A stretch of DNA of 64,000 bases from Streptomyces sp. MA5143a (GTDB taxonomy: Bacteria; Actinomycetota; Actinomycetes; Streptomycetales; Streptomycetaceae), in the NCBI RefSeq assembly GCF_900290235.1, contig NZ_OLMK01000009.1, positions 124,001 through 188,000 on the forward strand, read 5' to 3'. This document shows, in pieces, positions 8,799 through 62,071 of this stretch; positions within the stretch are counted from its first letter, which is position 1, and each line of letters opens with the position of its first letter. A model generated the notes under the pieces. It ran no database searches. It was not told where the DNA came from and saw only the letters and a program-made list of their open reading frames with translations. Both the position numbers and the translations under genes were made by a program.

Positions 8799-8799
8799 C

Positions 8800-11700: not shown

Positions 11701-12732
11701 ACCGGCACGACCATCACGGCGGACCGTACCCGCCAGGAACTGGGCTTCGACTCGCTGACCGCGATCGAGCTGCGCAACAGGCTCAGCCGTACCCTGGGTC
11801 TCCGACTGCCCGCCACGCTGGTCCTGGACCACGAGGACCTGGCCTCCGTCGCGGCCTTCATCGACGCCCGCCTGGAGGATGTCTCCTCCGGACGATGCGC
11901 GGACGACGGCCAGTTCGGGGTGGACGGTTCCGGGCTGCTCACGGAGCTGTTCCGGGAGTCGGCCGCAGCCGGGCGTATCGAGGACGCCGTGACGCTGACC
12001 GAAGCCGCCGCACGGATGCGGAAGACCTTCACCGACCCCGAGGACCCCGCCGTTCGGCGCGTTCCGGTCTGGCTCGGGCGACGGGCGGCCCGCCCCACGG
12101 CCGTATGCCTGCCCTCCTTCAGCGCGATAGCCGGCGTGCACGTGTACGCCCGCTTCGCGGACGGGTTCAGCGACGCGTGGAAGGTGGCGGCGTTGGCTCA
12201 CCCGGGGTTCTTCCCGGGCGAGCCGCTGCCGGGTTCGGTGGAGGCCCTGGCGGAACTGCACGCGCGGACGATCCTCGAGATGGCGGAAGGAGCCCCGCTC
12301 CTGCTGATCGGCCGCTCCGCGGGCGGTTGGGTGGCTCACGAGGTGGCAGCCGTCCTGGAGCGGATGGGTGGGACACCCACCGGCGTCGCCCTTCTCGACA
12401 CCCCCGCGGGCGGGGACGACCCGCGGGGGCACGGAGTGATGGTCGGCGGCATGCTGGAGCGCGACAGTCGGCTCGTCACGATCGACGACTACCGGCTGAC
12501 CGCGATGGGGGCCTATGCGCGTCTCTTCCGCGACTGGAAGCCCGAACCGATCGCGGCCCCCACCCTGCTGGTGCACGCCGCCACGCCGTACGGGACCGAC
12601 GAAACGCGGATCGCCTCCTGGCATCTCCCTCATGAGGTCGCCGAGGTGTCGGGTGATCACTTCACCATGCTGGAGGATCACTCCACGACCACGGCCGAGG
12701 CGGTGGAGAGGTGGGCGAGGTCATTGATGTGA
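8800..12732 (+). CDS. modular type I PKS: KS-AT-ACP-TE (release module)
   Basis: A 1310-residue second extension and release module. It starts at GTG 8800, one base after the previous stop, with its ribosome site in the end of that gene. The N-terminal charged coiled coil ([20 protein letters not shown]) is a typical docking segment for the preceding C-terminal tail. KS: Cys205 in TACSSS, HGTGT with glycine before the His, SNVGH. AT: SGQGSQ, GHSVG Ser653, malonyl-type HAFH 753-756. ACP: Ser985 in LGFDSL. Thioesterase: GRSAGG with Ser1173 and a late GDHF His1287. There is no KR, DH or ER, so the beta-keto group is retained. With the previous module this predicts a starter plus two malonyl units released as a beta,delta-diketo acid or cyclised to a pyrone or ring; the cyclisation is inference. 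Confidence 0.93.
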
Positions 12733-40692: not shown

Positions 40693-43600
40693 TCAGGTGT
40701 TCCGTTGTGCTGAGCTGCGGATGGTGCAGTCGAGGACGAACGCTCGGACGTTCAGGTTCCTACTCTCGTTGAGCTGAGTGGCCTGGGCATCGTAGGTCTC
40801 CTTTAAGCTGGCAGGCGTCTGCCTTGCAGCTGGCCGCTTGCGTTCCTTCGCCGTCCACTGGTCGGTGGGGAAGAAGGCGATCAGGTAGATGCCGTTGCGA
40901 GTGCCCAGCGCGGCGAGGTAGTCGTCGGCGAGCTGGGTTTGCATGGCGGTTTTGATCTTGTCGTGCCAGTTGCCCTTTACTTCGATAGCGACCTGGGCCA
41001 CGGACTCTTCCTGCCGCTGCGGTGAGGAGTGAGTCGCCGCAGCGGTGGGCGCTTGCAGGAGCAGGTCGATGCGGTCGCCTGCTCCCTTGATGTTGCGGTA
41101 CACCTGCACTTCTCGGTTGATGAGAATGCCGCCTTCGACGAGGTCTCGTCGTAAGGCGTAAGCGAGGTAGTCGGACACCAGGTTCTCGTCTTTGGGGAAG
41201 CGCAGCCGTTGCTTTCCGCTCTGGCCATTCGGCAGGGTTTCCAGCTCGGTTTCGTTCCACAGAATTGCCGCGGGGAGAGTCCCCTGGGTCAGGTCTTCCT
41301 GCATTTTGTTCAGGAGAGCGATGACGACGTCCATCAGATCCGTTCCGTCCCTGACAAGTCGTCGACGTGGGTCGTGGATCAGCTGACTGAGTTCGTCGGG
41401 GGTGGGGCGGACCCAGGAACCTTCCCTGTGCGCTTGCACGGCTTTCTGTGCCGCCGCTCGGATAATGCTGGTCTTGGGCCAATCGGCCGCCAACTCTCGC
41501 AGGAGACGGATGGCCTCACCGGTGCCCCGCGAGGCGAGGTGGTCGAGTACGACATCAATGTGCGTCTGCGCAGCAGTCGCACCCGGCGGGGACGAGCCAG
41601 ACGAGTCCGTCGAGGGGAAGCGGCCCAGGAGGATGCGGGCGATTTCGGCCAGTGCCGGTTCGGACAGTTTGAAAAGCCACGCCTGAGTGCTGTGAGAGCG
41701 GGAAAAGGCGCCGGAAACGGCTACGAGCGCGGTGCCGTCGGTACGAAGACGGTGCTCTGCTGTCGGCCAGATTTCTGTGGGTGTCTCCAACAGGAAGACA
41801 CGCAGATAAGCGGCGTCCAGACGCTCGTCGCGTGCTGGGCTGGGCTCGCGCAGCGGCGCACCGAGTCGGTCCCGTACCTGGTGGCAGACACGGGGGCTGC
41901 CTTGACGTAGAAGGATGGTGAGGACACGAGCGAGGACATCGTGGCCGCCAGGGCCGATGGCGGGGGCCCTTTCGTGAGCTTGCGTGGTGAGGTCGGTGAG
42001 TGTCTGCAACAACCTGGTCTCCAGCTCCGGTGTCCAGATGTAGGAGGCCAGGTCGAGGACGGGCGAGGTCTCTTCCGCCTCGTACAACGCCCGGACCAGC
42101 GAGTCGTAGGTGGTCTCGAGTTGCAGCGCGGCGTGGAGGAGGGCCATTTCCAGCAACTGACCGCGCGGGCCGATGTGGCGGGCCGCAGTGCTGGTGAGGG
42201 GGAAGGCCAGGAGTGTCGGTGCCCAGGCTTGCCACTGGCCTGAGGGCAGCGTGGCCAGTATCTCGCCGTCGTCGTTGAGGAGTGCTGTGAAGGCAAGGAC
42301 GGCTGCCCATGGACGGGCGGGAAGGCTGTTGGTGCCGATCCAGCTGCTGCCGGTGGGTAGGCCGTTCGTGACGAACCTGCGTGCTACGGCCAGCAAGCGG
42401 TGTTCGTAGCCGTCGGCGAGGATGACGGTACCGGGAAGAGACGGCAGATCGGTGAGCAACTCGTTGGCCGCGAACCTGCCTGTGTCCGGATCACATTGCA
42501 GGTTCCAGCACAGGGCCACGAAGCTGTCGTGGTCGCCCGACTCCGCATGTGCGAGAAACTCGCGGGTGGTGGTGATGTACTCGTCGCGGCCCTGCCATGG
42601 CTCCGTTCGCGACTGACGTCTTGCCGCCTGGGCCCTGAGCTGGTCAGCGCGAGGGCCGTCGATGGGAATGGCCTCAAGGTCTTGAGCGAACACCTGTGAC
42701 CAGACTCTGGTGCCTTGAGTGGACCATGCCGTGTTTTGCCCGGCGTCTGTCGTCCTGGCCATGGACCACACGTGCTGCAGCATGGGCCAGGCATGCGGCG
42801 CCTTTTCGTCGCTGAGGCTCTGTTCGAGTTTTACGAGCCAGGCGAGATCTGCGGCGTCGAGCAGGCTGGTGCGCTGTTCTCGTTCAGGGCCGACGGAGGT
42901 CTCAAAATGCGAGCGGACGGTCCGTGTGGGATGCGGGTCCCATCCCTCGGCCAGCTGGAAGGCATCCTCTGCGTCTTGGGCGACGTTGATGAGGTGTCGG
43001 GTGAGCGTGTGGCGCAGATGGTGAGCGTGCTGGTTTTCAGGGTCGTCCAACGGTGCGCACAGCGGCGCGGGAACGGCCAACTGTGGGTACGTCTGCAGGT
43101 AGATACGCAGCCACATAGCCACAACGGGAACACGCGCCTCGGCTTCCGGCCCGCTCAGTGCACGGTCGAGGAGGCCCTGGACCATGGCTGCTTCGTCGGA
43201 CCAGCCGACCCACAAGGAATCGGGATCCATGAGATGCGATCCGGCCCAGTCCAGAAATGGCGCGACCTGGTCCTCCGAGAGAGAAGCAGGCAGACGGCGG
43301 CAGAAAGAGGTGTAGAGGCTGGGGTCGGTTCGTGGCGGCGTCAGGGCTGCGAGGAGTTCATCGAGGGTGAGCCAGGGCTGGCATGTTTGTAGGACAGCAC
43401 CGCGCAAGCCGTCGGCGGGATCGTGCTCGGGCTGTTGAGCTAGTTCGGCGAGGATGGGCTTGAGTAGTGGAGCAGCCTCTGCCTGGTTCAGCATGCCAGC
43501 ACACTGGGCAGCCAGGCGGCGCAGCCGGTGAGGATACTGGGCATCACAGGCAATGGACGCTACTGCCTGCAGAAGTTCCCCGACCTCGTTCTCGGCGATC

Positions 43601-45081
43601 AGGTTGAGGATGAGTTCGAGTTCGTGTGTGATGTGGGGCGCGCGGTTCACGGCTTCGTGAAGAGCCTGCTTCAACTGGTCGGCAAGGCCGGGGTGTCGCA
43701 GTGGCGCCATGTGCCACCAGGGCAGGCCGTCGCCAGGCGTGTCCTGTCGGGCTTGGCGCAGCAAGCCATCGACGATGAGTTCGGTGCAGCGTAAGTCCTC
43801 GAGGTAAGAGCTGTAGGAGGCGATGGCCTGCGGGTCGACCTCGATCAGCCAGGGGCCGAGTTCTGGACGCAGGGAGATGAGCCAGGCAGCCAGCTCATGA
43901 AGGTCTGTGGGAATGCCAGGCTCGCCGACCTCCCCCCGGTGGACGAGAAGTCCCTGCAGTTGTTCGCGGGGGACCTGGTGGTCGGTGAGGTATCGAGCGG
44001 CGAGGTAGGAGGCGATGGAGGCGTGAGCAGGACCAGCGGCTGCAGCGCCGCGGCTGCTGAACAGCGAGCTGTTCAAAACCCCCTCAACGATGGGGCGCTC
44101 GATCGTGAAGGTGTCACCGGGGGTGCCCTCTTGTGCGCCGAGGAAGGTGTCGATGGCCAGCAGGGCCAGGCCGGGCTCGGTTCGGCGCCTTGTGGTGATG
44201 CCCTCGGCGCCGGTGAGCACGCAGTAACAGGCGAGGCGGGCTGCGGTGGCGAACCTCTGGGACTGGCTTCCAGCAAGGTCGTCAGGGGTACGGTCATGGC
44301 CTTGGTGCATGACGGCGTGTGGGAGGGCGAACGCGTAGAGGCTGGCGCGGCTGGCAGGCAGTGTGCTGTGTTCCAGAAACGTGTCGAGCAACAGGTCCAG
44401 AGTCAAAGGGGTACGCGCGAGGGCTTGGGCGCCGGCTTCGGTCACAGCTTCGAGAAAGAGCTTGGGATCCACGCCCTTGGCGGAGGCGGCTGAGACCAAG
44501 TCGCTTCGGCGTAGTGGTGCCAGGGTGTAGGTGCGGGATTCGTCGATACCGAAGGCGGCGATCACTGCCTGGCTCAGGACGTCGGTGTAGGCCATGCTGC
44601 GGCAAGCGATCAGTACTTGTAGCCGACGGCAGTCATAGGTGGCGGCCAAGTCGGTAAACCAGCCGGCAATTTCTTTGCCGGTGGCCCGGCATTCATCAAC
44701 GCCGTCCAGGACGAGAAGATGCGCATGCCCCGCCTCGGCATCGGACGAGCTGGCAGCGGGCGTATGTCCTCTGGGGCCAAGTCGGCTGAGTACTGAATCA
44801 GCCTTGCGAGTCAGGTCCTCCCAGGACCGGACCTGGCCGAGATCAACCCGCACTTGTGCATCCCAGCCCCGGCTCGTCTGGGTTGCATCGAGAACGGTAT
44901 TCAGCGCGGATGACTTGCCGATGCCAGCTTCGCCGAGCAGCACCGCAGAAGCGGAACAGGCGTCAATCAGCGGCACAACCGACGGCGGCTGGTGATACCA
45001 GCTCGATGTGTCCATGAGGAACCCATGGGAGTCGACAGGGAGGTCCTCTCCCACAGGGACGCAGAATCTGTCCAGTCGCAT
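40693..45081 (-). CDS. NACHT/STAND-like NTPase with C-terminal PD-(D/E)xK nuclease
   Basis: A 1462-residue protein. The NTPase is at the very N-terminus: Walker A GEAGIGKS at 50-57 and Walker B HLLVLDGVDE at 121-130, a DGxDE form typical of NACHT ATPases. About 900 helical residues with no clear motif follow, likely a solenoid. Near the C-terminus the segment from 1310 to 1420 resembles a PD-(D/E)xK nuclease: DRIDLLL (Asp1339), then VAIEVKGNW (Glu1367, Lys1369). STAND ATPases with nuclease effectors (Avs-type) act in phage defence, but there the nuclease is usually N-terminal, so this order is inverted. TTA codons lie at 41152-41154 and 40804-40806. Substrate and trigger are unknown. It stands alone, ending in a strong hairpin. 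Confidence 0.8.
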   Translation of the reverse strand: MRLDRFCVPVGEDLPVDSHGFLMDTSSWYHQPPSVVPLIDACSASAVLLGEAGIGKSSALNTVLDATQTSRGWDAQVRVDLGQVRSWEDLTRKADSVLSRLGPRGHTPAASSSDAEAGHAHLLVLDGVDECRATGKEIAGWFTDLAATYDCRRLQVLIACRSMAYTDVLSQAVIAAFGIDESRTYTLAPLRRSDLVSAASAKGVDPKLFLEAVTEAGAQALARTPLTLDLLLDTFLEHSTLPASRASLYAFALPHAVMHQGHDRTPDDLAGSQSQRFATAARLACYCVLTGAEGITTRRRTEPGLALLAIDTFLGAQEGTPGDTFTIERPIVEGVLNSSLFSSRGAAAAGPAHASIASYLAARYLTDHQVPREQLQGLLVHRGEVGEPGIPTDLHELAAWLISLRPELGPWLIEVDPQAIASYSSYLEDLRCTELIVDGLLRQARQDTPGDGLPWWHMAPLRHPGLADQLKQALHEAVNRAPHITHELELILNLIAENEVGELLQAVASIACDAQYPHRLRRLAAQCAGMLNQAEAAPLLKPILAELAQQPEHDPADGLRGAVLQTCQPWLTLDELLAALTPPRTDPSLYTSFCRRLPASLSEDQVAPFLDWAGSHLMDPDSLWVGWSDEAAMVQGLLDRALSGPEAEARVPVVAMWLRIYLQTYPQLAVPAPLCAPLDDPENQHAHHLRHTLTRHLINVAQDAEDAFQLAEGWDPHPTRTVRSHFETSVGPEREQRTSLLDAADLAWLVKLEQSLSDEKAPHAWPMLQHVWSMARTTDAGQNTAWSTQGTRVWSQVFAQDLEAIPIDGPRADQLRAQAARRQSRTEPWQGRDEYITTTREFLAHAESGDHDSFVALCWNLQCDPDTGRFAANELLTDLPSLPGTVILADGYEHRLLAVARRFVTNGLPTGSSWIGTNSLPARPWAAVLAFTALLNDDGEILATLPSGQWQAWAPTLLAFPLTSTAARHIGPRGQLLEMALLHAALQLETTYDSLVRALYEAEETSPVLDLASYIWTPELETRLLQTLTDLTTQAHERAPAIGPGGHDVLARVLTILLRQGSPRVCHQVRDRLGAPLREPSPARDERLDAAYLRVFLLETPTEIWPTAEHRLRTDGTALVAVSGAFSRSHSTQAWLFKLSEPALAEIARILLGRFPSTDSSGSSPPGATAAQTHIDVVLDHLASRGTGEAIRLLRELAADWPKTSIIRAAAQKAVQAHREGSWVRPTPDELSQLIHDPRRRLVRDGTDLMDVVIALLNKMQEDLTQGTLPAAILWNETELETLPNGQSGKQRLRFPKDENLVSDYLAYALRRDLVEGGILINREVQVYRNIKGAGDRIDLLLQAPTAAATHSSPQRQEESVAQVAIEVKGNWHDKIKTAMQTQLADDYLAALGTRNGIYLIAFFPTDQWTAKERKRPAARQTPASLKETYDAQATQLNESRNLNVRAFVLDCTIRSSAQRNT

Positions 45082-48102: not shown

Positions 48103-51100
48103 TTATATCCGATCTTGCGTGACCCGAGCAGGAGTGCTGGCCGACCCTCGCGACAGCTGGGCTTCCGTAGGCGGCACGAAGTCTTCAGCAACGAGGGCCG
48201 CGAGGTCGAAGTATGCCTCCCGCGCCTTCGGCCGCACCATGTCGAGGTCCACCTCGGCACCGGCAGCCAGGTGCTCGTCGAACGGAACCACAATGACACC
48301 CCGGCACCGCGTCTCGAAGTGCGCCACCATGTCCTCCTCCTTGACCATCTTGCCGGTCTCGCGTACCCCGGAGATGACGGTGATGGACCGCGCGACCAGG
48401 GCCGCGTACCCGTGCGCCGACAGCCAGTCCAACGTCGTACTCGCGCTGCTTGCCCCGTCGACCGACGGCGTGGAAATGATGATGAGCTGGTCGGCGAGGT
48501 CGAGCACACCGCGCATCGCGCTGTACAGCAGACCCGTGCCCGAGTCGGTCAGGATGATCGGGTACTGCTTGCCGAGTACGTCCATCACGCGCCGGTAATC
48601 CTCGTCGTTGAACGTCGTGGTGGCGGCCGGGTCAATGTCATTGGCGATGACCTCCAGACCGGAGGGGGCCTGTGAGGTGAACCGCCGGACGTCCATGTAC
48701 GAATTGACGTGCGGGATCACCTGGACCAAATCACGGATCGTGGTATCGGTCTCGCGCCGTACACGGCGACCGAGCGTACCGCCGTCCGGGTTGGCATCAA
48801 TCGCGAGGATCTTGTCCTGCCGCTCACTGGCATATGTGGCACCTAGGGCAAGCGTGGTTGTTGTTTTACCGACGCCGTCCTTGAGACTGATCACGGCGAT
48901 CCGGTAGTTGGAAAGCACCGGCGTACGAATCAACTCCAGCTTCCGCCGACGATCGGCGGTGCTTGTAGCGCTGACGCGCAGTTCTACGCCTTCCTTCTTT
49001 AGGACTCGATCGAGGGCGCGCAGGATGTTCTTCCATTCCGTCGCCGGAATCCCGTCCGCCTCGAAGGACCGACGTATGTCATCGCCGGTGACGAACCCAC
49101 TGGCCTTTCCATGCTGGATAAGCCTGGTCAAGTGAACGAAGTTGGCCAGTTCGGAAGGGGGCGTGACGGGCGCAACGGGCAGAGCGCCGGAGGAAGACGG
49201 ATCGGAAATTGCGTATCCGTAGATTCGGAGCTGCTCCAAAGCGCGTCGTACAGTGCTGCGGGAGACGGAGAACCGTTCGGCAAGGGTCTGCTGCGCGGGA
49301 AGGCGTTCCCCCACTGGGAATGCTCCGCTCTGAATGTCTTCAATGAGAGCTTCCACCACGACTTCGTACGCCTTTTTTCGAGGAGGGCGCGCCTCAATTC
49401 GGAGCTCTATACCCGACTCCTCCAAGAATTGGTTGAGAGTACGCAAGACGTTCTTCCAGTCAGTCACCGGAATGCGGTCAGCCTCGAACGCTCGACGCAC
49501 GCTATCACCTATGATGTAGCCTTCGGCCCTGCCTTCTTCAATCAGTGCTGTCAGGTGGCCGAACTGTGTGAGATCGGCTGGAATGTGAAATTCAAGACTG
49601 TTAGGCGAACTTCCGAATATCCCTACATCCTGTGGAGGTGCAGGGTACCCGTCTTGTTGCAGGCGCGCGATGACGCGCCGTACGGCCGCTGAGAATTGCT
49701 TGGCAAGTGCCCTTTGTGTAAGGAGTTGGTTGCTCTCGGGGGCAACGCCGGACGTGATGCCGGAGTGCGGCCCCTTTGCTATCTCTGGAGAGGAAGGTCC
49801 TGTGGGTTCTGTCGCGCCGTCAGTGGCGCCGAGATACGCGAAAGGCCGGCGATAAGCTGGGAACTCTTTACTGGAGGCCAAGTCGTGCCGGACGGCGGAA
49901 ATGCCGTCCGGTGCGTACGGGTGAGCGTCGAGATACCGACTGAGGGCGCGTCGCGCCTGCCACATGTCGTAGGCGGTCGCGTGAGCACGGAGCCGGTCGC
50001 GCGCACCGGAGTGAAGGGCCAAGACCGGGTCGTGTCCGGCCGTGTGGGTGATGGTCAGCAGACCGCTGGTAAGGAATTCGGCGATATCGGCCAGGGTGCC
50101 CTCAGGCGCCGCCTGCTCGCGGAGCGCGTGGAGGAGCGGCACGGTGAGTTTCGGCAGGTTGGAACAGAGGACAGCAAGACGGATTGCGGAAGCTGAAGCG
50201 GTGTGGAGGAAGGCGTCTGCGATGACCGCAGGGTCTGTTCGGGTGAGGGAAGTCCTAGCGCGCGAGGGGGTGGGAGGGGAGAGCCTTCCTGTTGCCGGAA
50301 TGAGTATGGCGTCGCATCCGTGCGGATCCGGCCGCATCATGGTGCGCGACCATGCGCCAATTGACCGAGGGGTACAGGAGATGACCGGCAGGGGCAGCCA
50401 CTGGGGTTGCTGAGCCTGGCGTCCGGGAGGCTGCTGCAGCCGCATGGGGAGGCGGTATCGCAGAACAGCGTTCCGCTCGCCGGCCTGTGAGGCGGTCACG
50501 CGCACAGCGGGCAGATTGAGCGCGGAACGCCGCCACAGGCGGCGGGGCAGGGGGTTGATGAGCGCGACAGGGACATGCTTTCCCCACGTGTGCAGGAGCT
50601 GCCACACTCGTGGTTGCTGCCAGCCTGCCGAGGCACAGTCGGAGAAGACGAGAATGAGACGTCTTCCGCGGGATCCGCTGCCGTGGTGCGGGACTCGATC
50701 GGCTACGACGACGCCACCGAGCTGATCATGAACGTGCGGGTGCTCGTCCTCCCACGTCAGTTGCCAGTCGTGCACAGCCCGGAACACACCGAGGCCCCGC
50801 ATCAACTTCGTCAGCGCCTGAGCTGTATCGCCCCACACCCGCATCGAGACGGAGGTGTCTACCACAACGACGGCCTCGAACCATGCTTCCGGTGCCGCGC
50901 TGAACACCGGAACCAGGGGTCCCCCTCTGGAGTGGTGGTCGACTGTCGCGTCTATGTCCAGGCGGGTACGGCTCCCTCGGAGCCAAGGACGCCGGAACGG
51001 CTGGAGCGACCGGCCGATGGCCAGGGCCTCCGAGAGGGGCTCGGAGCGGCCGATGGAGAGCGGTTCGCCGCGTACGCGTGCGTCGCCCTCAGGATGGAGT

Positions 51101-51417
51101 GCCGACACCCCGGTGATCCCGATCGGCTTGTCGGCCTGGTGAGCCGTCAGTGGAGTGGGATCGGTGGGTGTCCCCGCCTCGGTCGTGCTATCGCCAATTG
51201 AGTCGGCAGACGTCGGCCTAACGACGGGTACGGACAGATCGGGGCGACCGCCGCTTTCGCCGGAACGAGCAGCAGCCAGCCAGATCGCGTCGGCAAGTGT
51301 TCGAGCGTCAGTGCCTGCCGGAGAAGTCGCGGCCAGCACGTCCAGCAGCCTGCGCAGATCCTTACGCACGGGAGAGCTCGCGGGTGAGCAACTCATGCAG
51401 ACTTTCTCGTTGCTCAC
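48103..51417 (-). CDS. vWA - sigma-1.1-like x2 - GntR HTH - ParA/MinD ATPase fusion (SAV_2336-like)
   Basis: A 1104-residue protein with an unusual domain string. (1) N-terminal SAV_2336-type region and vWA domain with MIDAS DTSVS near residue 186. (2) Two repeats resembling sigma-70 region 1.1: [18 protein letters not shown] near 615 and [18 protein letters not shown] near 757, each followed by WKN(V/I)LR and GIELR/GVELR. (3) Between the repeats, a GntR winged helix, [20 protein letters not shown], about 677-740. (4) From about 837 a ParA/MinD-type ATPase, [16 protein letters not shown] (deviant Walker A with D for the usual G), AIDANPDGG, and LTDSGTG. It is last in a leftward operon; its start overlaps the MoxR stop. 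GTG 51417 is used, with ATG 51396 or GTG 51369 possible. A sensor and regulatory hub is inferred. Confidence 0.85.
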
Positions 51418-52330
51418 CCTGCAGTTCCTGGGTGCCGCTCAGCAAGGCCACGGCGTTCAACAGCTGGTCGATAGCGAGATGGTTCCCGCCGGCCACGCGA
51501 TCGGCGAACTCCTGAATCAGCTGCTCGCTCTCACCGGTGATCTCTCCATCGAAGTGTGCTTGGACGATGTTTCGGAGTAGTGGCGCCGTCAGCTGGGGCA
51601 TGGTGTAGCGAATGCAGCGGCGCAGGAATGGCGGTGGAAAGTCGCGTTCACCGTTGCTGGTGAGCACGATGAACGGGAACTGAGTGCACTGCACCTTCCC
51701 GCTCTCGATTGTGTGGGTGTTCCTGTTGCTCCAGAGACGGATCTCCGCCCGGTGACGCCTGTAGCGTACGAGTTCGGGAATTTCATACTCGCCGCGTTCC
51801 AGTACCTCCAGCAGGTCACTGGGGAGGTCGAGGTCGCTCTTGTCGATCTCGTCGATGAGGAGTGCACGGGGTCGCTCCGCGGGCAGGAGTGCGGTGCCCA
51901 GAGGACCGAGTTGCAGGAACGGAGCGATGTCGTCACGGCTGCGGGCGCTGCCCTTGCGCCCCGCGCGCAGGTGTGAGCGCCGACTGACGGTGTTCTGGAG
52001 GTTCTGGGCGTGAATCCGTCCCAGAGCGTCGTAGCGGTACAGGGCCTCACTGAGGTTGCTTCGAGATGTGATGTGCCAGCGCAACACGTCACCCAGATCC
52101 AGTTCGTGAGCGACCTGTTCGATCACCGTGGACTTCCCAGACCCTGCAGGACCGGTCACCAGGAGCGGGCGGCGCAGGTGGAGCGCGGCGTTGACCGCGT
52201 CGATAAGGCCGGCTGGCGGTTGGTACTGGCCATGCTGTGAGTTGCGCGGGAAGGTCCGCCATGGGGGCGGGGCAGCCAAAGGCACCTCTCGCTGCTTGCC
52301 GTCACCCTGGTAGTAGGGCCTCCACGTCAT
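51362..52330 (-). CDS. MoxR-type AAA+ ATPase of VMAP operon
   Basis: A 322-residue AAA+ ATPase. Walker [10 protein letters not shown] lies near residues 59-67, Walker [13 protein letters not shown] near 155, a sensor-1-like [20 protein letters not shown] near 225 with the arginine-finger pair, and a short lid domain. These match MoxR ATPases, which partner vWA proteins; here the vWA gene follows directly with overlap. The ATG overlaps the caspase-gene stop by four bases (ATGA). In vWA-MoxR-VMAP conflict systems the ATPase is thought to gate or remodel the effector. Confidence 0.92.
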
Positions 52331-54387
52331 GCTTCCTCCTCAGGCGTGGTGACCACGCGGTATTCAAAGGGCCGGCAGAACTCCAGCCACCCCTCGTCGT
52401 GCCAGACGGTACGGATGTCACCGAGACAGGCCACGCCGTGCTGGTGTGCTCCCCACCGATGGCGATACGCAGCTGCCAAGCCGTCCGGTAGTTCGTGCCA
52501 GCGCTCCTGTACCAGGCCGCGTAACTGGCCCTGATCGGGGCGGGTATCGCTGCGGGGCCACAAGACGATGGGCGCGAAGGGCAGTAGCAACTCCAGGACC
52601 TCTTCGAGGTCATCGGGAGAGTGATCGACACCGATGACCGCGTCGTACTGTCCGGCGGAGAGTCGGTACTCAAGTGCCGACCGGTCGAGCAAAGCATCCG
52701 AGTCAATCCACTCCACTGGAGCGGCAGCGCAGGAGGACTTCTTCTTCAGCGCTTTCCGGGCAGCATCGTTGATCTCCGCGTTGTCCTCGGCTTCGTCGAG
52801 GCGGCCGCTCCAGCGCGGTATGACGGAATACTTGGCCCCGAGTAGATACCGGCCGACTTTTTCCTCCTCGGGGTACCAGCGGGCAAGGAGGTGAGCCGGG
52901 GCTGCAATGTCGACGTGCTCCAGGAGTTCCGGATATGGAAGCTCCCTGCGGGCCCAGATCATGGCGGCTCCGATGGCCTTTGCCACACCATGCGCCCCTC
53001 CGGGTTCGCAAGGGAAGCGCTGGTGCAACGGAAGGTCTGCGCTGCCATGCAGAAGCCATGCGTCCACCTCTTCGGGCCATTCGGTCCAGGCACCGACCAG
53101 ACTGACGACTAGGCGCAACGCCCGGCGCTGCCGGTCTTCGGCGAACTCGCCGAAGGCGTCGTTGACTTCGGTTACAATATGCAAGCGCCGAGCCCATTCC
53201 TGGAGACGGGGATCGACGTGCGAGATCCCTGACTCGTGGAGGAGCGCAGCCACGAACCGGGCCAGCCCCTTCCATGGTGCTCCGTCAAGAGGTTGAGCCC
53301 GTAACACGGCGTACTCAAGCAGGTCCCGCAACGGAACCGTGCCTTCCGCGCGTGAGGGGAAGCCCGCCAACCGGCCGGCAGATCGGAGTAGATCACTGGT
53401 CAGAGAGCCAGCGAGGACGTCCGCGAGAAACTCCTTTGTCCGGAAGACCTCCAGCAGGGCCGTCACCACGTCGTCGACCCACGCCCGTGCAGCCGAGTCC
53501 AGCTCATCGTCGACCCGGCTGCAGGCGATGAATTTCTCCAGCTCCAGAAGTGTGGAACGGGTGAGACGCCCGGGTGAGCGTCGGGGGCCCCGCCACATCT
53601 CCACGCTCTGGCCTAGGTCCTGGAGTCCCAGTGGTCCGACGACATCTCCATGGGCGTTCGCGATGTTCGACGGATTCCGAGCCAGCCACAGACCCTCGAG
53701 AGGGAACGGATCCTGGTCATACTCGGCCCGCCCGATGACCTGTCCGCTTACCTGATCGCGCAGCGTTTCAGCCAGCGTTCTGTCGATGTACAGCGCCGGC
53801 CCGGCGCCGGGAACACCGTCTTTCAGGGTCCTGGCCAGGGAAAGGCTGAGGCTCATATCACGAGCTGGCTGATCGGCCGCGGCGGCCGTGAGAATAGCCA
53901 GCCGAGACCTGCCCGCACGGACGCCACCTGCCAGCCTTCCGGCGTCCGGAACTCCGCCAGCCGCATGGCAGGTGTCGACAATGGCGATCACACCGTCAAT
54001 CCCCGGCTCGTCTGCGGCCTCGGTTATCAGGCGTCCGACATCCACGGCGGACCGGAGGCTCTGCGTCGTTGAGTTACGGACCATGAAATAGAGATCGGTG
54101 CGCTGTGGCGGAGTGAAGCCGTGCCCCAACAGGGCCAGCACGAGAACAGCGCCGTCGGCCTTCGCCTGCCGGACCACAGTGTCCACCGCCTTGCCGATGT
54201 CCTGTGGCGTCAGGTCGTCCCCGATCAACAAGGAGGGATACTCCCCGGTTCGGGCCTGGCAGCCTCCCAGCATCGGGTCCGTCAAGGCGTCGTGTAATTC
54301 CCGGGCGGCCTTCTCCAGTTGGCTGAGCGGCCCCATTGCCGTGCACTGCGCCGCGATCACCTGCACGTGTCGTACAGCCTTGGCCAT
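52327..54387 (-). CDS. caspase-like VMAP effector protein
   Basis: A 686-residue protein from ATG 54387, which shares one base with the upstream stop. The N-terminal about 250 residues form a caspase/metacaspase-like (C14) domain: catalytic His89 in LALLGHGF and Cys140 in IVDTCHAAG, the DxCHxG-type signature, with LTAAAADQPA after it. The remaining 430 residues lack motifs known to me and occupy the place of the VMAP C-terminal domain in vWA-MoxR-associated proteins (LPLHQRFPCEPGG and VDHSPDDLEEVLELLLPFAPIVLWPR are notable). The gene immediately precedes the MoxR ATPase, as expected for a VMAP ternary system. A protease released on sensing invasion is the inferred role. Confidence 0.85.
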   Translation of the reverse strand: MAKAVRHVQVIAAQCTAMGPLSQLEKAARELHDALTDPMLGGCQARTGEYPSLLIGDDLTPQDIGKAVDTVVRQAKADGAVLVLALLGHGFTPPQRTDLYFMVRNSTTQSLRSAVDVGRLITEAADEPGIDGVIAIVDTCHAAGGVPDAGRLAGGVRAGRSRLAILTAAAADQPARDMSLSLSLARTLKDGVPGAGPALYIDRTLAETLRDQVSGQVIGRAEYDQDPFPLEGLWLARNPSNIANAHGDVVGPLGLQDLGQSVEMWRGPRRSPGRLTRSTLLELEKFIACSRVDDELDSAARAWVDDVVTALLEVFRTKEFLADVLAGSLTSDLLRSAGRLAGFPSRAEGTVPLRDLLEYAVLRAQPLDGAPWKGLARFVAALLHESGISHVDPRLQEWARRLHIVTEVNDAFGEFAEDRQRRALRLVVSLVGAWTEWPEEVDAWLLHGSADLPLHQRFPCEPGGAHGVAKAIGAAMIWARRELPYPELLEHVDIAAPAHLLARWYPEEEKVGRYLLGAKYSVIPRWSGRLDEAEDNAEINDAARKALKKKSSCAAAPVEWIDSDALLDRSALEYRLSAGQYDAVIGVDHSPDDLEEVLELLLPFAPIVLWPRSDTRPDQGQLRGLVQERWHELPDGLAAAYRHRWGAHQHGVACLGDIRTVWHDEGWLEFCRPFEYRVVTTPEEEA

Positions 54388-55355
54388 CACTGCTTCAGCG
54401 CCTCGACTATCGGCCCGGCCACGGCTGGCTGCTTGAGGTATTTGGTCGCCGTGTGAACCCAGATACCGTCGGAGTCCACCCGGCGTGTCAATGGCACGAC
54501 TCCCGAGGAGTTCGGCAACATCCAGTCCTTTATGCGCGGGCGACACACCACGATGTCGTCCCGATCCCAGAAGTTCAGCCATCGCTCCACCGATTCCGGT
54601 GTGCGCGCCGGCCGGGGCTGGGCCCGCTGCAGGACCACTCCGGCTGTCGCCAGCGGAGAGCCCAGTGTGACGAACAATCGGTTGGGCTGGGCCATGTGGT
54701 GCAGCGCTTCATAAGCGACTACAGACCCGAGTGAATGCGCCACGACAACCAGAGGAAGCCCCGGCTCCACGGAGCTCAGCACTCGTTCCCGAATCAGGAC
54801 GTCCAGTGGCTGACCCTGACGGCCTTGCACCTTTCGGTCCAGGTACCGCCCGACTTGGGCCAGGCTTCCCAGCAGAGGCCATCCACTGGCCCATTGGCCA
54901 GCCAGTCGCAGTCCGGGGAGCTGGAGAAGAGTGGTCAGTATCCGTGCAACCATACGTAGGGGCTCTCCTACTCCCTGAAGCTCCCCCGTGCTGTTGCGGG
55001 ACTGGGACCGAGCGTCCTCGATCACGCGGAGCGCTCGACGATCGCCTTGCGCCTGCGCTTGTAAGAGCAGTTCATCCGTCAGTTCGCAAACCAGGGTGTC
55101 CAAGAAGGCGAGCTGCTCGCCGTCGAGATGCTCTGAAGCTCCCTGCTCACCGTCCGTGGCGAACAGATCACTGTAGTTTGCGAAATGTGTCTTCGCCAGC
55201 CACCCTTGCGTCAGCCCTGACACGGCATCGGCATGTCCGGCATGGCGAGCGCCTTCAGCGAGTGCTTCCAGCCAGGCGCGTTTCTCCGCCACGGCGTCTC
55301 GTACGCCACCGATACCGTGCACGAACACCAACTGTGCTCTGCCAGGCGTGTCCAT
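54387..55355 (-). CDS. alpha/beta hydrolase leading the VMAP operon
   Basis: A 322-residue alpha/beta hydrolase. FVHGIGG near the N-terminus supplies the oxyanion loop; the nucleophile elbow is VVVAHSLGSVVAYEAL with Ser208; NFWDRDDIVV probably carries the acidic residue and GIWVHTATKYL the late His. The insertion between strand and elbow is long and helical. The start ATG 55355 follows the GC-rich GGGGGGCGCGGG. The stop shares a base with the caspase-gene start, so the two are tightly coupled. It could be a lipase/esterase effector or a signalling enzyme; the substrate is not deducible. Confidence 0.85.
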   Translation of the reverse strand: MDTPGRAQLVFVHGIGGVRDAVAEKRAWLEALAEGARHAGHADAVSGLTQGWLAKTHFANYSDLFATDGEQGASEHLDGEQLAFLDTLVCELTDELLLQAQAQGDRRALRVIEDARSQSRNSTGELQGVGEPLRMVARILTTLLQLPGLRLAGQWASGWPLLGSLAQVGRYLDRKVQGRQGQPLDVLIRERVLSSVEPGLPLVVVAHSLGSVVAYEALHHMAQPNRLFVTLGSPLATAGVVLQRAQPRPARTPESVERWLNFWDRDDIVVCRPRIKDWMLPNSSGVVPLTRRVDSDGIWVHTATKYLKQPAVAGPIVEALKQ

Positions 55356-55726: not shown

Positions 55727-57703
55727 GTGAGCAGTTCCCGCTCCGGCGGGCGGGTGTTGCCCGCCCGTCCTGGTGACCCGAAGCGGGTCGGTCCCTACCG
55801 GATCATCGGCCGTCTCGGCTCGGGCGGTATGGGTACAGTTCACGCTGGCCTCGACGCCGTCGGCCTCCGTGTCGCGGTGAAGGTCGTTCATTCCGCGCAG
55901 GCCGAGGATCCCGAGTTTCGGGCCCGGTTCCGCCGTGAGGTTCAGCTGTCCGCGCGTGTGCAGGGGCCGTTTCTCATACCTCTGCTTGCCGCCGATCCGG
56001 ATGCCGATTCGCCGTGGTTGGCCACTGCATACGCCCCAGGGCCCACCCTCGACCGGCACCTCGCGAGCTACGGACCGCTGGCCGAGAGCACCTTGTACGC
56101 TTTCGCGACAGGCACCGCACAGGCTCTCGCGGCCATCCACGCTGCTGGCGTCGTCCATCGGGATGTCAAGCCGCAGAACGTCATACTCACCCCTGCCGGC
56201 CCCCGCGTTCTGGACTTCGGCATTGCCCACGCCGACGACGGTACGTCCGTGACCCGCACCGGCATCATGACCGGCACCCCCGGTTGGATCAGCCCGGAGT
56301 ATTACCGCGCCGGCAGCGCCGGCCCCGAAGGTGACGTGTTCGCCTGGGGCGCGCTCGTTGCCTACGCTGCCACCGGACGCCTGCCCTTCGGCACGGGAGC
56401 CCTTGACGTGGTCGCCTACCGCGTCATGTCCGAGGAACCCGACCTCCATGGCCTTCCCGACGAACTCCGCACCATTGCGGAGAGCGCCCTTGCCAAGGAG
56501 CCGGGCAGCCGAACCACCGCGAGTGAGGCCGCCGAGGAATGCGCGGTTCTTCTCGCGGCTCAGGCCACACAGGTCATCCCGGCCGGTGGGGAACCGACGC
56601 TGGTCGGTGATCTTGTCGCGGCTGAGTGGGACGTGCCCGCCGTGGACGACCCGGCCTGGCACTCTCCCGCCCGTTCAAGCAGACGCATGGTGGGCATCGC
56701 CGTGGCCGCGGGCGTCGTCATCGGTGGCCTGACGGGCGGAGCGCTCGCTCTTCAGCCCGGCGGGACGGAGACACTCCCCTCGAGTTCCCGCCGCGACGTC
56801 AGCGCGTCCTCCACGACGATCACCGATATACCCTCTCCCGCTTCACCGACGGCAAGTCACCAGACGCCGGGCACATCACCGCCCGTGAACGCCGGCGAGG
56901 CGACGACCAGCACATGGCGTGCGGCCCGCCGCGCCAAGGGAGAGGCTGAGATCGAGACCGAGGCCGCACTCGGCCACGATGTCGGCCTGGGAGTCGGCGA
57001 GGAGTACAACTACAGCGGCCGGTACGACGTGAGCTACGCCCAGCCGAGGAAAGAGATCTACATCGCCATCAGCGGCCCGACCATCGAGTCACGCGTCATC
57101 CAGGGAGCGGCCAAGGACACCTGTCTCACCCTGCGCATGATGGCGGACATCTACAAGGACCTTCCGTACGACGAGTATGTCCTGGTGGACAACACCACTC
57201 CCACGGCGCCCGCGATCGTGTGGGAAGACGACTTCCGCACCAACACTGGCTGCGTCACACAGACCATCGAACGCACCACCACCGACCAGGGGCAGGATCC
57301 GAACTGGAATCCCAGCGAAGCCGGCCTGAAGGCGGCGCGGATCCCGAGTGCCGACAAGGACGAGATCCGAGTGGCAACTGAGGCGGTCCACCAGCTTTTC
57401 GTGGAGTGGAACGGCAATTCCCGGCTGTTCCACGACCCCCGCTACATCAGCGACGAGAACACCAGTATCGGCTTCGCCCCGCAGGAAGGCGTGATGTACG
57501 TTTGGGCGACCAAGCCCGAGTGGGACCAGAGCACGCGGGAGGATTGGGGGAACATCGCCGCAGGTGTGGCCTGCCAGTCAATCCTCACCGAGTCCCGCGC
57601 CCGGCCGGCATGGCGCTATGCCCAGTACGCGGTTGCGGTTCTCGACGGCACCGGTGGTACGGACTTTCTTCGCTGGGGTTCCGTCGGCAGTTGCGCGAGC
57701 TGA
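55727..57703 (+). CDS. transmembrane Ser/Thr protein kinase (PknB-like)
   Basis: A 658-residue Hanks-type kinase from GTG 55727. The kinase domain covers about 22-285: glycine loop IGRLGSGGMGTV, Lys52 in VAVKVV, catalytic HRDVKPQN at 144-151, DFG near 165, GTPGWISPEYY activation segment. Thr/Pro/Ser-rich linkers flank one transmembrane helix near 321-343 (MVGIAVAAGVVIGGLTGGALAL). The C-terminal about 290 residues lie outside the membrane and form an uncharacterised sensor-like domain with cysteines that may pair (CLTL, GCVTQ, ACQS, SCAS). It is divergent from the VMAP operon, so a signalling link is plausible but unproven. Confidence 0.92.
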   Translation: MSSSRSGGRVLPARPGDPKRVGPYRIIGRLGSGGMGTVHAGLDAVGLRVAVKVVHSAQAEDPEFRARFRREVQLSARVQGPFLIPLLAADPDADSPWLATAYAPGPTLDRHLASYGPLAESTLYAFATGTAQALAAIHAAGVVHRDVKPQNVILTPAGPRVLDFGIAHADDGTSVTRTGIMTGTPGWISPEYYRAGSAGPEGDVFAWGALVAYAATGRLPFGTGALDVVAYRVMSEEPDLHGLPDELRTIAESALAKEPGSRTTASEAAEECAVLLAAQATQVIPAGGEPTLVGDLVAAEWDVPAVDDPAWHSPARSSRRMVGIAVAAGVVIGGLTGGALALQPGGTETLPSSSRRDVSASSTTITDIPSPASPTASHQTPGTSPPVNAGEATTSTWRAARRAKGEAEIETEAALGHDVGLGVGEEYNYSGRYDVSYAQPRKEIYIAISGPTIESRVIQGAAKDTCLTLRMMADIYKDLPYDEYVLVDNTTPTAPAIVWEDDFRTNTGCVTQTIERTTTDQGQDPNWNPSEAGLKAARIPSADKDEIRVATEAVHQLFVEWNGNSRLFHDPRYISDENTSIGFAPQEGVMYVWATKPEWDQSTREDWGNIAAGVACQSILTESRARPAWRYAQYAVAVLDGTGGTDFLRWGSVGSCAS

Positions 57704-58384: not shown

Positions 58385-61300
58385 GTGCCGTCAGAACACT
58401 GGGCAGGCGGAAACCTGCGCGAGTTGAGCAAGGAGCTGCCTGAACTCCATCAAGCCCTGGCCAAAGCCCTACGCGGTGCGTTCGAGGTCATGCAGATCAC
58501 CCTGAGGGAATACGCCAGGCGACATCACCTGAGCGTGTCGGTGGTGAGCCGATATCTGAGCGGGAACCGTCTTCCGTCCAAAGACTTCATCGAGAAGACC
58601 ATCGAGCTGGCCGGCACCCGTCTCACCGCGGAAGACGCCACCACTTTGCGGAACCTCCACAGCCAGCGGGCTGAGGAGAAGGCGGAGCACGGAGCAGGCA
58701 GCATCCGGACACTGACGGCGCGCATGCTCAATCAGAAAGTGCAGTACGAGACGGCGACCCGCCAGCACTTGGCCACGATGGGCGCCTTGGATCGGGCCCA
58801 AACAGAAAACCACAGGCTGAAGACTCAGCTGCGCCTTTCCACCGGACCGCTGGCCGACACCTCCGATGACCTCCTCAGCGAACTGGAGCGGTATGCCGCG
58901 CTACGCGCGGCAGGTGCACGCGATGCCGTCACCTCCATCTCACACGACACCCATCGCAGCTGGCGCACTGCGCTGAACCAATACGATCGCGCCCCGGCCT
59001 TGACTTGGACGGACACCGGACCGTGCACCCCCGAGCGCCGCGTGGCCAGCTATCGGCGTCTAGGGCTGGATCAGCTGCATCGCGACGCGCTCGACGAACT
59101 CGTACCGTTACAGGTCGGCGGCGACGCCGCTGTCGATGACGTTGCGCTCGAGGTGCATTCCCTGGCGCTGGGAGCCATGCACGCCAACGGCCCCCGTCCG
59201 CTCGCCCGCGCCCTCGAATACTGGTCCGAGGACCATCCGTCTGTATCGGGTGCCGGTGCTCTGGACGCGAGCCAGTTCACTTTCCGCAGCCACCTGGCGT
59301 CAGGCGAAACCGCTGCCCCGCTCCTGGCTCTGTGGCGACGAAGCCTCACCGAATGGGACCACGCGGAACGGCCTGCTTGGACATCCACCCCACCCCGTAC
59401 CGCCGAGCGCCGCATCGCGGTGTATGAGCGCCTCGGACTGGAGCCCGCGACCCGCAGGGTGCTCACGGAGCTGATCCCGATCTCCTTCGCTGAAGGACCG
59501 ATCATCATCAGTAGCGAGTTCACCCAGTGGTACACACCCACCCACCAGTCCGGCCGCCCCTGGTACTGGCCCGCCTACCAGAGCTACCTGGCACAAATCA
59601 AGGGATGGACCGCCGAGGCGGTGGCCACCGTGGGAGAGAGCGCTGCCCAAGTGGTCGCGCGTCTCGCGGACCCCACTGATGCTGCCGCCTACCAGTCCAA
59701 GGGTTTGGTCATCGGTTACGTCCAGTCCGGGAAGACCGCCAGCATTACTGGGGTCGTCGCCAAGGCTGTCGATGCCGGCTACCGATTGGTCATCATTCTC
59801 AGCGGCTCTCTCAACATCCTTCGCGCCCAGACACAACGGCGTATCGACAAGGAGTTGGTCGGTCGCGAGAACATTCTGCGCGGAGCCCCCGAAGAGGACT
59901 GCGAGTACGCCTTGGACCCGGAGTGGAGGGCGGGAGAGTTCTTGACTCACGGCGGGCTTCCATCCCTCCACGGATCGTTCGACGTTCTCCGACTCACGAC
60001 CCTGAGCAGCGACTACCAGTCCCTGCAACAGGGGATCACCGCGCTCGAGTTCGAGAAGCGTGACGCCACGCTGCCGCTGTACCACCCGGCCAACCTGCAT
60101 CGCACGGCCGCCCGGCTCATGGTGGTCAAGAAGAACAAGGCCGTGCTCGGCTCGGTTATCAGAGACTTGCGCAGAGTCGGTGCCCAGTTGCAGGAGATTC
60201 CGGCACTGATCGTGGACGACGAGTCCGACTACGGATCGGTTAATACGCTGCACCCCGGGCATCAACGTGAAGGCCGTGAGCGCAGCGCCATCAACGCACT
60301 CCTCTCCGAACTGCTTGGCCTGCTTCCCCGAGCCCAGTACGTTGCGTATACGGCTACGCCGTTCGCCAATGTCCTCATTGATCCGCACGATGCGGAGGAC
60401 GTCTTCCCTAAGGACTTCGTGCTCTCGTTGCCCCGCCCGGCTGGGTACATGGGGGCGCGCGACTTCCACGACGTGGACTCTGCCATTCCTCCTGAGGAGC
60501 GAACGGTCGCCAACTCCCAGGAGATGGCCCATGTACGCGCCATCCACGAAGCCGAACCGGGCGACGACTCCTCTCTGCAACAGGCCCTCGATGCCTTTGT
60601 CCTGTCGGGCGCCATCAAGCTGTATCGCGAAGCCCTCGACCCGAGAAGTTTCGCTTACCGTCACCACACCATGCTGGTACACGAGTCCGTGCGCATCGCC
60701 GACCACCGCGAGCTCATGGATCGTCTCCTTAAGCTCTGGTACGTCCCCGGCCCACTCGAGGCCGAGGCTCTTCATCGGCTGAGGGCGCTCTACGACCTGG
60801 ACTTTGCCCCCGTATCCGCCCACCGGGCCGAAGACCTCGCACGCCCTGTCTCGTTCGACGAGCTGATCCCGTATATCGATGCCGCGCGTACCCGCATCGC
60901 CGGCGGCTCAGAGAAGCCTGTGATCACCGTCAACGGGGACAGGGATATCGAGCGCGCCAGCGTGGACTTCGACCAGCGCCCCGTATGGAAGATCCTAGTC
61001 GGGGGCGCCAAGCTCGCTCGAGGCTTCACCGTCGAGGGCCTCACCATCAGCTACTACCGCCGTGCCGCCTCGCAGGCGGACACCCTGATGCAGATGGGCC
61101 GCTGGTTCGGCTTCCGCGAAGGCTATGCCGACCTGGTCCGGCTCTACATCAGTCGCGGTGAAGCTGCTGGGAACAAAGAGATCGATCTCTACAAGGCGTT
61201 CGCAACGATGTGCCGCGATGAGGAGGAGTTCCGGTCTCAACTCGCCGACTACGCACACCTGGTCGACGGGAAGCCGATGATCACTCCGGCGCAACTCCCG

Positions 61301-62071
61301 CCATTGGTGGCCCAGTACCTGCCCTGGCTCAAGCCGACGAGTCCCACCAAGATGTACAACGCCGAACTCGTGGAGGTCCGGTCACCGGGGAGATGGATCG
61401 AACCGTCGGGCTACCCCGTGGACATCGGCGCGAAGCGCCGAAACACGGAGCGGTGGCGCGCGATCCTTAGCACCTTCCAGAGCCCCCTGGTCCCCGTCTC
61501 CGTGCCGGCTGACGGCAGCCGGCAGGAGACCTCCTTCTCCGCGTACACGACTGTCATCGGACACACGCAGTTCCTTGAGGTGCTCAGCAGGCTGGAGTGG
61601 CTGGCCCCTGGGAATTTTGCACCGCACCTCGCCTATCTGCAGACCGCAAGCACGACGGGGGCAAGCATCGAGGATTGGCTCATCCTCGCCCCCCAGCTAG
61701 CTCCGCCGCAGCGCCGGGCTGGATCTGTGCTGGAGTCTCCGGAGCTCTCACTCTTCGTCCGCAGTCGGCGTAGGGGGCCGCTCTTCGGCGCCATCAGCGG
61801 CCCCGCACATCGCCTGGCCGCCCGGGCTCTTCGTGCGAGCCTTCCGGATCGCAGGGGGATCGCATTGCTCTACCCGGTCCTGGAGGCGGGTGACGCCTAC
61901 CAACACACTGCGTATCTGCCCGGCACATCGGTCGACCCGTCCCAGGTCTCTCTTGCCTTCACCCTGCTCCCGCCTGGCGACTCGAAGGACGAAGCGGCTC
62001 CGCAACCTCCTCTGGTCCGATTCCGCGCCAGGGACTCCTCGTTGCCCGATCGCCCCATCATCGACAGGTAG
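58385..62071 (+). CDS. HTH-fused Z1-domain helicase-like ATPase
   Basis: A 1228-residue protein from GTG 58385. Residues about 36-78 form an XRE-like helix-turn-helix (ITLREYARRHHLSVSVVSRY, NRLPSKDFIE), followed by a coiled coil to about 150. Two repeats of the form TPERRVASYRRLGL and TAERRIAVYERLGL lie near 215 and 340. The Z1 helicase-like core has Walker A GYVQSGKTAS near 444, VDDESD at 610-615, YTATPFANV near 660, KLARGFTVEGL, and DTLMQMGRWFGFREGY near 900. Z1 ATPases usually sit in restriction-like or defence clusters with a methyltransferase and nuclease; none is visible here. A TTA codon is at 59108-59110. The inverted repeats upstream suggest autoregulation by the HTH. Confidence 0.85.
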   Translation: MPSEHWAGGNLRELSKELPELHQALAKALRGAFEVMQITLREYARRHHLSVSVVSRYLSGNRLPSKDFIEKTIELAGTRLTAEDATTLRNLHSQRAEEKAEHGAGSIRTLTARMLNQKVQYETATRQHLATMGALDRAQTENHRLKTQLRLSTGPLADTSDDLLSELERYAALRAAGARDAVTSISHDTHRSWRTALNQYDRAPALTWTDTGPCTPERRVASYRRLGLDQLHRDALDELVPLQVGGDAAVDDVALEVHSLALGAMHANGPRPLARALEYWSEDHPSVSGAGALDASQFTFRSHLASGETAAPLLALWRRSLTEWDHAERPAWTSTPPRTAERRIAVYERLGLEPATRRVLTELIPISFAEGPIIISSEFTQWYTPTHQSGRPWYWPAYQSYLAQIKGWTAEAVATVGESAAQVVARLADPTDAAAYQSKGLVIGYVQSGKTASITGVVAKAVDAGYRLVIILSGSLNILRAQTQRRIDKELVGRENILRGAPEEDCEYALDPEWRAGEFLTHGGLPSLHGSFDVLRLTTLSSDYQSLQQGITALEFEKRDATLPLYHPANLHRTAARLMVVKKNKAVLGSVIRDLRRVGAQLQEIPALIVDDESDYGSVNTLHPGHQREGRERSAINALLSELLGLLPRAQYVAYTATPFANVLIDPHDAEDVFPKDFVLSLPRPAGYMGARDFHDVDSAIPPEERTVANSQEMAHVRAIHEAEPGDDSSLQQALDAFVLSGAIKLYREALDPRSFAYRHHTMLVHESVRIADHRELMDRLLKLWYVPGPLEAEALHRLRALYDLDFAPVSAHRAEDLARPVSFDELIPYIDAARTRIAGGSEKPVITVNGDRDIERASVDFDQRPVWKILVGGAKLARGFTVEGLTISYYRRAASQADTLMQMGRWFGFREGYADLVRLYISRGEAAGNKEIDLYKAFATMCRDEEEFRSQLADYAHLVDGKPMITPAQLPPLVAQYLPWLKPTSPTKMYNAELVEVRSPGRWIEPSGYPVDIGAKRRNTERWRAILSTFQSPLVPVSVPADGSRQETSFSAYTTVIGHTQFLEVLSRLEWLAPGNFAPHLAYLQTASTTGASIEDWLILAPQLAPPQRRAGSVLESPELSLFVRSRRRGPLFGAISGPAHRLAARALRASLPDRRGIALLYPVLEAGDAYQHTAYLPGTSVDPSQVSLAFTLLPPGDSKDEAAPQPPLVRFRARDSSLPDRPIIDR

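Follow-up and report, generated by a model that had tools for sequence, protein, structure and literature searches.

The stretch of DNA studied here, called the window, comprises 64,000 nucleotides of Streptomyces sp. MA5143a (contig NZ_OLMK01000009.1, positions 124,001 to 188,000). At 48103-55355 of the window lie four leftward open reading frames, which encode an alpha/beta hydrolase (gene 1), a fusion of a caspase-like domain with a VMAP-M2 region (gene 2), a MoxR ATPase (gene 3) and a von Willebrand factor A (vWA) protein of the SAV_2336 type (gene 4). As a set, the four genes correspond to the standard caspase subtype of a predicted virus-defence family, a known kind. The unusual part of the operon is the GntR/sigma-1.1/MinD tail of the vWA protein, missing from an earlier note on this DNA. 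Genes and domains are arranged as follows.

54387..55355, minus strand: gene 1, alpha/beta hydrolase of 322 amino acids (aa), with nucleophile Ser208 in HSLG, Asp264/266/267 and His301; Pfam matches are under the cut-off only
53788..54387, minus strand: gene 2, N-terminal caspase-fold peptidase, about residues 1-200, with His89, Asp138 and Cys140; assigned from a sub-cut-off NF047832 match, Foldseek and conservation
53152..53805, minus strand: gene 2, VMAP-M2 middle region, residues 195-412 (PF19965, E 2.1e-52)
52327..53151, minus strand: gene 2, conserved C-terminal region at the position of VMAP-C, without Pfam match, seen as conserved alignment columns
51362..52330, minus strand: gene 3, MoxR-type AAA+ ATPase with N-terminal WxPxYxG and PPWRTF, Walker A GPAGSGKS and Walker B LLIDEID
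49921..51309, minus strand: gene 4 (whole gene 48103-51417), SAV_2336 N-terminal region with vWA and a MIDAS-like DTSVS at residues 187-191 (NF041121, E 9.6e-93)
49390..49761, minus strand: gene 4, tail unit 1, a degenerate GntR-like segment and, after it, sigma-1.1 copy A (49387-49584); assigned from its resemblance to unit 2 and the copy B search
49204..49368, minus strand: gene 4, tail unit 2, intact GntR-type winged helix (PF00392, E 5.6e-16)
48964..49161, minus strand: gene 4, tail unit 2, sigma-1.1 copy B, matching the genome's own HrdB, HrdB in the PDB and NF004561 (E 6.2e-10)
48103..48945, minus strand: gene 4, MinD/ParA-type ATPase domain with P-loop KDGVGKTT and 87% identity to MinD from the type VII secretion locus of the same genome

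Composition and distribution of the operon

Hydrolase stop and VMAP start have the single base 54387 in common, the VMAP end and the MoxR start overlap by 4 bases (52327-52330), and MoxR and vWA overlap by 56 bases if the GTG at 51417 is the start or by 35 bases with the ATG at 51396. The earlier note had described four leftward genes with overlaps of one, four and tens of bases, correctly so. Its assignment to the VMAP-type ternary systems is likewise borne out, since the profile hidden Markov models (HMMs) for VMAP-M2 on gene 2 (E 6.6e-52 in a Pfam/NCBIfam scan) and for SAV_2336_NTERM on gene 4 (E 9.6e-93; 311.6 bits against a cut-off of 200) both match over cut-off. VMAP-M2 was found in all 18 sequences scanned. 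SAV_2336, which we take to be the vWA component of VMAP ternary systems, is followed in gene 4 by a variable C-terminus, and vWA residue D187 is invariant in 36/36 rows (window included). Membership in the VMAP family therefore stands; the role in biological conflict, which the note also claimed, is still a prediction.

Concerning the caspase domain, the catalytic His89 and Cys140 named before were confirmed and sit in ...LLGHG... and ...DTCHAAGG...; 37 of the 38 rows aligned, those of the window and 36 relatives, have both together with Asp138, while L049 is gapped at that place. A Peptidase_C14 HMM run over the own genome retrieved nothing at E 1e-3 and Pfam C14 does not match gene 2, so the caspase call is made from motif, conservation and fold. 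The AlphaFold2 model of gene 2 has a mean predicted local distance difference test score (pLDDT) of 73, with mostly 80-95 for residues 1-140 and about 60 at 141-160. Its C-terminal third is predicted with low confidence (pLDDT <50 for most of 507-555 and for 633-686). The nearest solved folds in Foldseek are MALT1 paracaspase (best E 9.7e-6), bacterial GSU0716, metacaspase 9 and caspases 7 and 9, with asparaginyl ligases interspersed among the matches. Structure prediction thus supports a caspase domain, a point on which the note had let its claim depend. Membership in the EACC1 systems was rejected: the curated model caspase_w_EACC1 (NF047832) matches gene 2 with E 7.4e-14 and 51.7 bits, far under its cut-off of 140. 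The caspase domain is what the operon has in common with those systems, whereas its partners here are MoxR, vWA and VMAP-M2.

The predicted structure of gene 1 is an alpha/beta-hydrolase fold (pLDDT 79.6), and Ser208, Asp264, Asp267 and His301 are kept in 39/39 aligned rows (window included). Fold searches were weak in Foldseek (best E 4e-3) and reached a best Z of 13.4 in VIA-align, where SOBER1, Nir2 DDHD and acyl-protein thioesterase 1 nearly tie at Z 12.4-13.4. Sequence profiles of the hydrolase and of VMAP gave no match to solved structures. The enzyme is probably a lipid esterase. Gene 3 matches several AAA families of Pfam and NCBIfam. As regards the N-terminal MoxR motifs WxhapG and PsWRxa, PPWRTF fits the latter, whereas WRPYYQG merely resembles the former and is longer by one residue; at least 90% of 35 rows, counting that of the window, agree in the W and PPWR columns.

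VMAP-M2 occurs over cut-off in 39 of 392 Streptomyces genomes, that of the window included, and in 47 at E 1e-3. One locus per genome was fetched, with a second place in G049 left out, which gave 46 relative loci. All four genes are matched in 33 of them, invariably on one strand and in the same order, with the hydrolase first and VMAP-MoxR-vWA following 5' to 3' as in the window. One further locus is without MoxR match, one is without hydrolase and without the caspase part of VMAP, two have a hydrolase and a short VMAP only, and nine weak-match loci, two of them with a hydrolase relative, are without the system. A second set of 19 named loci from Streptomyces, Actinomadura, Micromonospora and Catenulispora comprises 16 with four genes and three with hydrolase and VMAP only, two of these cut by a contig end; at least 10 of the 19 are also within the 46, and the two sets are not independent. 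Relatives are also found on 10 PLSDB plasmid records, all from Streptomyces. The nearest relative, G140, has a VMAP protein 75% and a vWA protein 62% identical to those of the window.

According to section 9 of Kaur et al. (2020; PMC7159879), a caspase in VMAP always has an alpha/beta-hydrolase gene adjoining, and the genes are ordered VMAP-MoxR-vWA. The operon of the window has both features. Since that section and the locus survey show the hydrolase as a standard partner, the composition is not unusual, contrary to the earlier note. The hydrolase does take first place, as was said there, but it is no extra component.

As an observation apart, L066, L067 and L093, of which the last two are one and the same locus, combine a hydrolase with a short caspase-VMAP-M2 protein of about 480 aa, and neither MoxR nor vWA was matched within the sequence fetched. 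They could represent a stand-alone hydrolase-caspase pair.

Host-protein copies in the tail of the vWA protein

Gene 4 encodes 1104 residues, and its tail, at about 540-1104, makes up about half of the protein: two GntR-sigma-1.1 units and a MinD/ParA domain. Unit 1 is 44% identical to unit 2 over residues 13-136 of the latter; its GntR segment is not recognised by Pfam.

Sigma-1.1 copies A and B (66 aa each) are identical to one another at 34/66 positions and to region 1.1 of the genome's own HrdB, by sequence a full-length principal sigma factor, at 38/66 and 37/66 (56-58%). With copy B as query, the own genome yielded this HrdB (58% over 64 aa, E 2.5e-20) and copy A (53%, E 8e-21), and the solved chains in the PDB yielded HrdB (E 3e-19). 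A chance match was rejected on these results. Pfam PF03979 gives copy B 17.8 bits against a cut-off of 22.5, and own HrdB is likewise under the cut-off with 19.2 bits. The net charge is -5 for HrdB region 1.1, -4 for copy A and +1 for copy B. In the 29 best-scoring other genomes, a set biased towards high scores, HrdB region 1.1 is near-invariant, with 24 sequences identical to the own one and five with one change. By comparison of these sequences, the tail copies have drifted far while HrdB region 1.1 stays near-invariant.

In the tail of G140, GntR and MinD accompany two sigma-1.1 segments of greater divergence (31% and 38% identity to copy B). For a survey of the 392 genomes a profile (A3) was built from the two copies of the window, own HrdB and the two G140 segments, all of which are retrieved by construction, and at most 15 candidates per genome were scored. 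More than one match was obtained in 31/392 genomes, namely G000, G140 and 29 others. Seven of the 29 other second copies were fetched and proved to be five full-length principal-sigma-like factors and two contig-end fragments; the assessment of the remaining 22 used frame length and score, and single-match genomes were taken as having HrdB. Among the matches listed, sigma-1.1 lies outside a sigma factor only in the genome of the window and in G140. A common occurrence of sigma-1.1 in other tails was rejected, the checked second copies being sigma-like factors or contig-end fragments. Some Streptomyces evidently possess a second full-length principal-sigma-like factor, confirmed by sequence in five cases and numbering at most 29/392 by match count.

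A GntR-sigma-1.1 query against 394 genomes of the class at E 1e-24, a threshold that weaker relatives, perhaps also G140, would escape, found the own genome only. Among plasmids the one sigma-1.1 match is HrdB itself, and 13 others are weak matches, most of the annotated ones being GntR regulators; phage records gave no match to sigma-1.1. Taken together, the sequences mark the HrdB-region-1.1 tail as a rare variant of a known operon kind. No report of a sigma-1.1 vWA tail was found in the literature searched (titles, starts of abstracts, some passages).

The source of the MinD domain is recognisable too. The own-genome locus of its 87% identical counterpart has two WXG100 genes, EccB and EccE alongside; for other genomes the label type VII is given by identity alone, secretion genes having been checked at the own locus only. 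In a tree of 27 rows representing 26 distinct copies (G129_b and G129_c are the same copy in overlapping loci), read without support values, the MinDs of the window and G140 tails are sisters on long branches inside a clade of 20 conserved Streptomyces host copies. The P-loop is KGGVGKTT in 20/20 host copies and in the G140 tail, and KDGVGKTT in the window tail. Ratios of nonsynonymous to synonymous substitution (dN/dS) were obtained for the 12 of 22 MinD sequences having both anchor motifs (2 tails and 10 host copies, with 10 host copies dropped): 0.16 between the tails, 0.10-0.14 between the tails and the two own host copies, and a median of 0.09 in 45 host pairs. With values of 0.10-0.16, the tail MinD is kept by purifying selection, somewhat relaxed, and is not decaying. 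Further MinD paralogs, 52-70% identical and in other reading frames, one of them with an internal stop, were seen in G129, G119, G343 and G209 (L168-L172).

Tails vary among the relatives: the 36 vWA proteins contain 55 Pfam families, with TIR_2 as the most frequent tail domain (12/36), followed by NaeI (5/36) and Z1 (5/36); CbiA, that is MinD, occurs in 3/36 and GntR in 2/36. Seven relatives were scanned singly. Among these, L056 has extracytoplasmic function (ECF)-like sigma regions 2 and 4 with TIR and trypsin domains, L061 has a HATPase_c_2 domain, presumably of the kind in anti-sigma kinases ("RsbW-like"), L060, the G140 locus, has the GntR/MinD tail, and the other four are without any of these.

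The operon agrees with the caspase/hydrolase VMAP systems of Kaur et al. in the fixed order of VMAP, MoxR and vWA, in an N-terminal caspase on VMAP, in a separate hydrolase gene and in a long variable vWA tail; MinD/ParA tails, predicted to be inactive, and winged-helix tails are already named there. It differs from them in its two sigma-1.1 (HrdB) modules within GntR-sigma-1.1 units, and in the near-intact P-loop of MinD. In the main text of that paper "sigma" and "RNA polymerase" occur 0 times, and its source data may hold an earlier record; ECF-sigma-like domains in other conflict systems were described by the same group in 2021 (PMC8195603). The VMAP-type loci of Dore et al. (2024; PMC10907252) also combine MoxR and a VMAP peptidase with a vWA protein of variable C-terminal part. 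Their tail, however, is a C-type-lectin domain diversified by a retroelement, whereas here it consists of host-protein copies. Compared with their sequence originals, HrdB region 1.1 and the type VII MinD, these copies are excised from their parents and joined to vWA.

Possible functions of the operon and its tail

On balance we favour, as reasonably probable, the view that the operon is a VMAP ternary system of the caspase/hydrolase subtype and of the abortive-infection type, whose tail mimics host proteins. The products of genes 2-4 would form a complex that is off at rest. Upon invasion, the MoxR ATPase and vWA pair would rearrange the complex and thereby switch on the caspase, and caspase and hydrolase would then damage or kill the infected cell. 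The tail might serve as a bait mis-bound by invader proteins, namely those aimed at host RNA polymerase or at division or secretion ATPases, or as a module that occupies RNA polymerase once released.

Several points weigh against this view. The published VMAP work, as far as covered by the literature searched, gives predictions and no demonstrated function of any VMAP system. VMAP-C is absent from the Pfam matches of the 18 VMAP sequences, a conserved C-terminal region being present there. Copy B is without net acidic charge (+1), which speaks against its blocking RNA polymerase as a DNA mimic. The tail, seen in 2/392 Streptomyces among the matches listed, is very rare and so offers no general explanation of family function; it could also be no more than a regulator that binds DNA. 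Long branches may have helped to group the two tail MinDs as sisters. Finally, the MinD P-loop retains the signature Lys and GKTT, and by its sequence the domain may be active and not an inert mimic.

Among multicellular bacteria VMAP systems are widespread, and published views differ on whether their vWA tail acts as sensor or as effector. Section 35 of PMC7159879 discusses inactive host-like modules as decoys, and sections 10 and 35 predict proteolytic release of vWA-linked modules and dominant-negative action of inactive copies. In PMC10907252 the tail is proposed to be a sensor and to pass the signal on to the VMAP peptidase. Both proposals are compatible with a tail made of host-protein copies. 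The copies are recognisable and have known partners (RNA polymerase, HrdB, MinD), which makes the question testable here: bait and dominant-negative module predict different binding partners and different effects of tail deletion.

A sensing tail is a tentative but tenable proposal. An invader protein targeting HrdB/RNA polymerase or MinD would bind the tail as bait, and MoxR would relay this to caspase and hydrolase. It is consistent with the differing tails among the relatives, and with host-copy modules that evolve faster than their originals yet are under purifying selection, although the faster change is possibly plain relaxed constraint. We know of no phage protein directed against Streptomyces sigma-1.1, and many tails of the family are enzymes, TIR_2 and NaeI among them, which fit effectors better. 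Somewhat less likely in our judgement is that the caspase frees the tail, and that the sigma-1.1/GntR/MinD fragment acts as dominant negative on RNA polymerase and MinD-dependent processes, shutting down the infected cell. The charge retained by copy A speaks for such a fragment, that of copy B against it; to our knowledge, lone sigma region 1.1 has no high-affinity grip on RNA polymerase. In Escherichia coli, region 1.1 of sigma-70 occupies the downstream DNA channel of RNA polymerase, full inhibition of the polymerase by Gp2 of phage T7 requires region 1.1, and the isolated region supplied in trans restores this inhibition (PMC3778932). Region 1.1 is therefore a proven point of phage interference in that organism. 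With low confidence, we slightly favour bait over blocker. In its fullest form, a bait of HrdB region 1.1 and type VII MinD would trigger, via MoxR, a caspase-plus-lipase suicide, by analogy with the integrated domains of plant nucleotide-binding leucine-rich repeat (NLR) receptors; we regard this specific combination as rather doubtful. If the bait were real, bacteria would have in this system an equivalent of the integrated-decoy receptors of plants.

Two other explanations do without a host-protein mimic or without defence. The GntR/sigma-1.1 part might regulate its own operon or silence invading DNA at promoters, with MinD providing ATP-dependent multimerisation. The intact helix-turn-helix of the second GntR and the transcription-related parts in the tails of L056 and L061 agree with a regulator; the unrecognised first GntR unit does not, and the tail gene is last in the operon while most relatives have unrelated tail domains, which is odd for an operon regulator. 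We hold this to be unlikely. That the operon serves mycelial life instead of defence, as a module for developmental cell death or for signalling, appears very improbable. Table 1 of PMC7159879 correlates VMAP systems with multicellularity, and no phage test of a VMAP system is reported in the literature searched (titles, starts of abstracts), but patchy presence (39/392), occurrence on plasmids and variable tails are unlike a core developmental pathway.

Genes around the operon

PADLOC found no whole-protein defence-model match for the four operon proteins and short weak matches only, to the MoxR P-loop (best mad8, E 1.4e-4, 36 residues) and to the helix-turn-helix and MinD of gene 4 (E 0.008 and 0.035). 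The earlier note had placed the operon in an island beside other defence-type genes, which is reasonable given a NACHT protein, an MzaC-like Z1 protein and a ZorD/DpdE-like SNF2 helicase close by. The NACHT protein (40693-45081, 1462 aa) lies downstream of the operon and has no PADLOC match at E 1e-5. The gene at 58385-62071 encodes a stand-alone helix-turn-helix and Z1 protein, MzaC-like (E 2e-55), which also resembles the Z1 parts of VMAP vWA tails in L053, L047, L043 and L049. At 34867-40055 an SNF2 helicase near the DpdE/ZorD models is followed by a SWIM zinc-finger protein. Divergent from the hydrolase gene runs a serine/threonine kinase gene (55727-57703); a phmmer search of the other VMAP loci fetched was negative for relatives of this kinase at E 1e-5. 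An IS110-type transposase (62850-63956) is situated at the right edge of the window, and polyketide synthase genes (2325-12732) occupy its left end.

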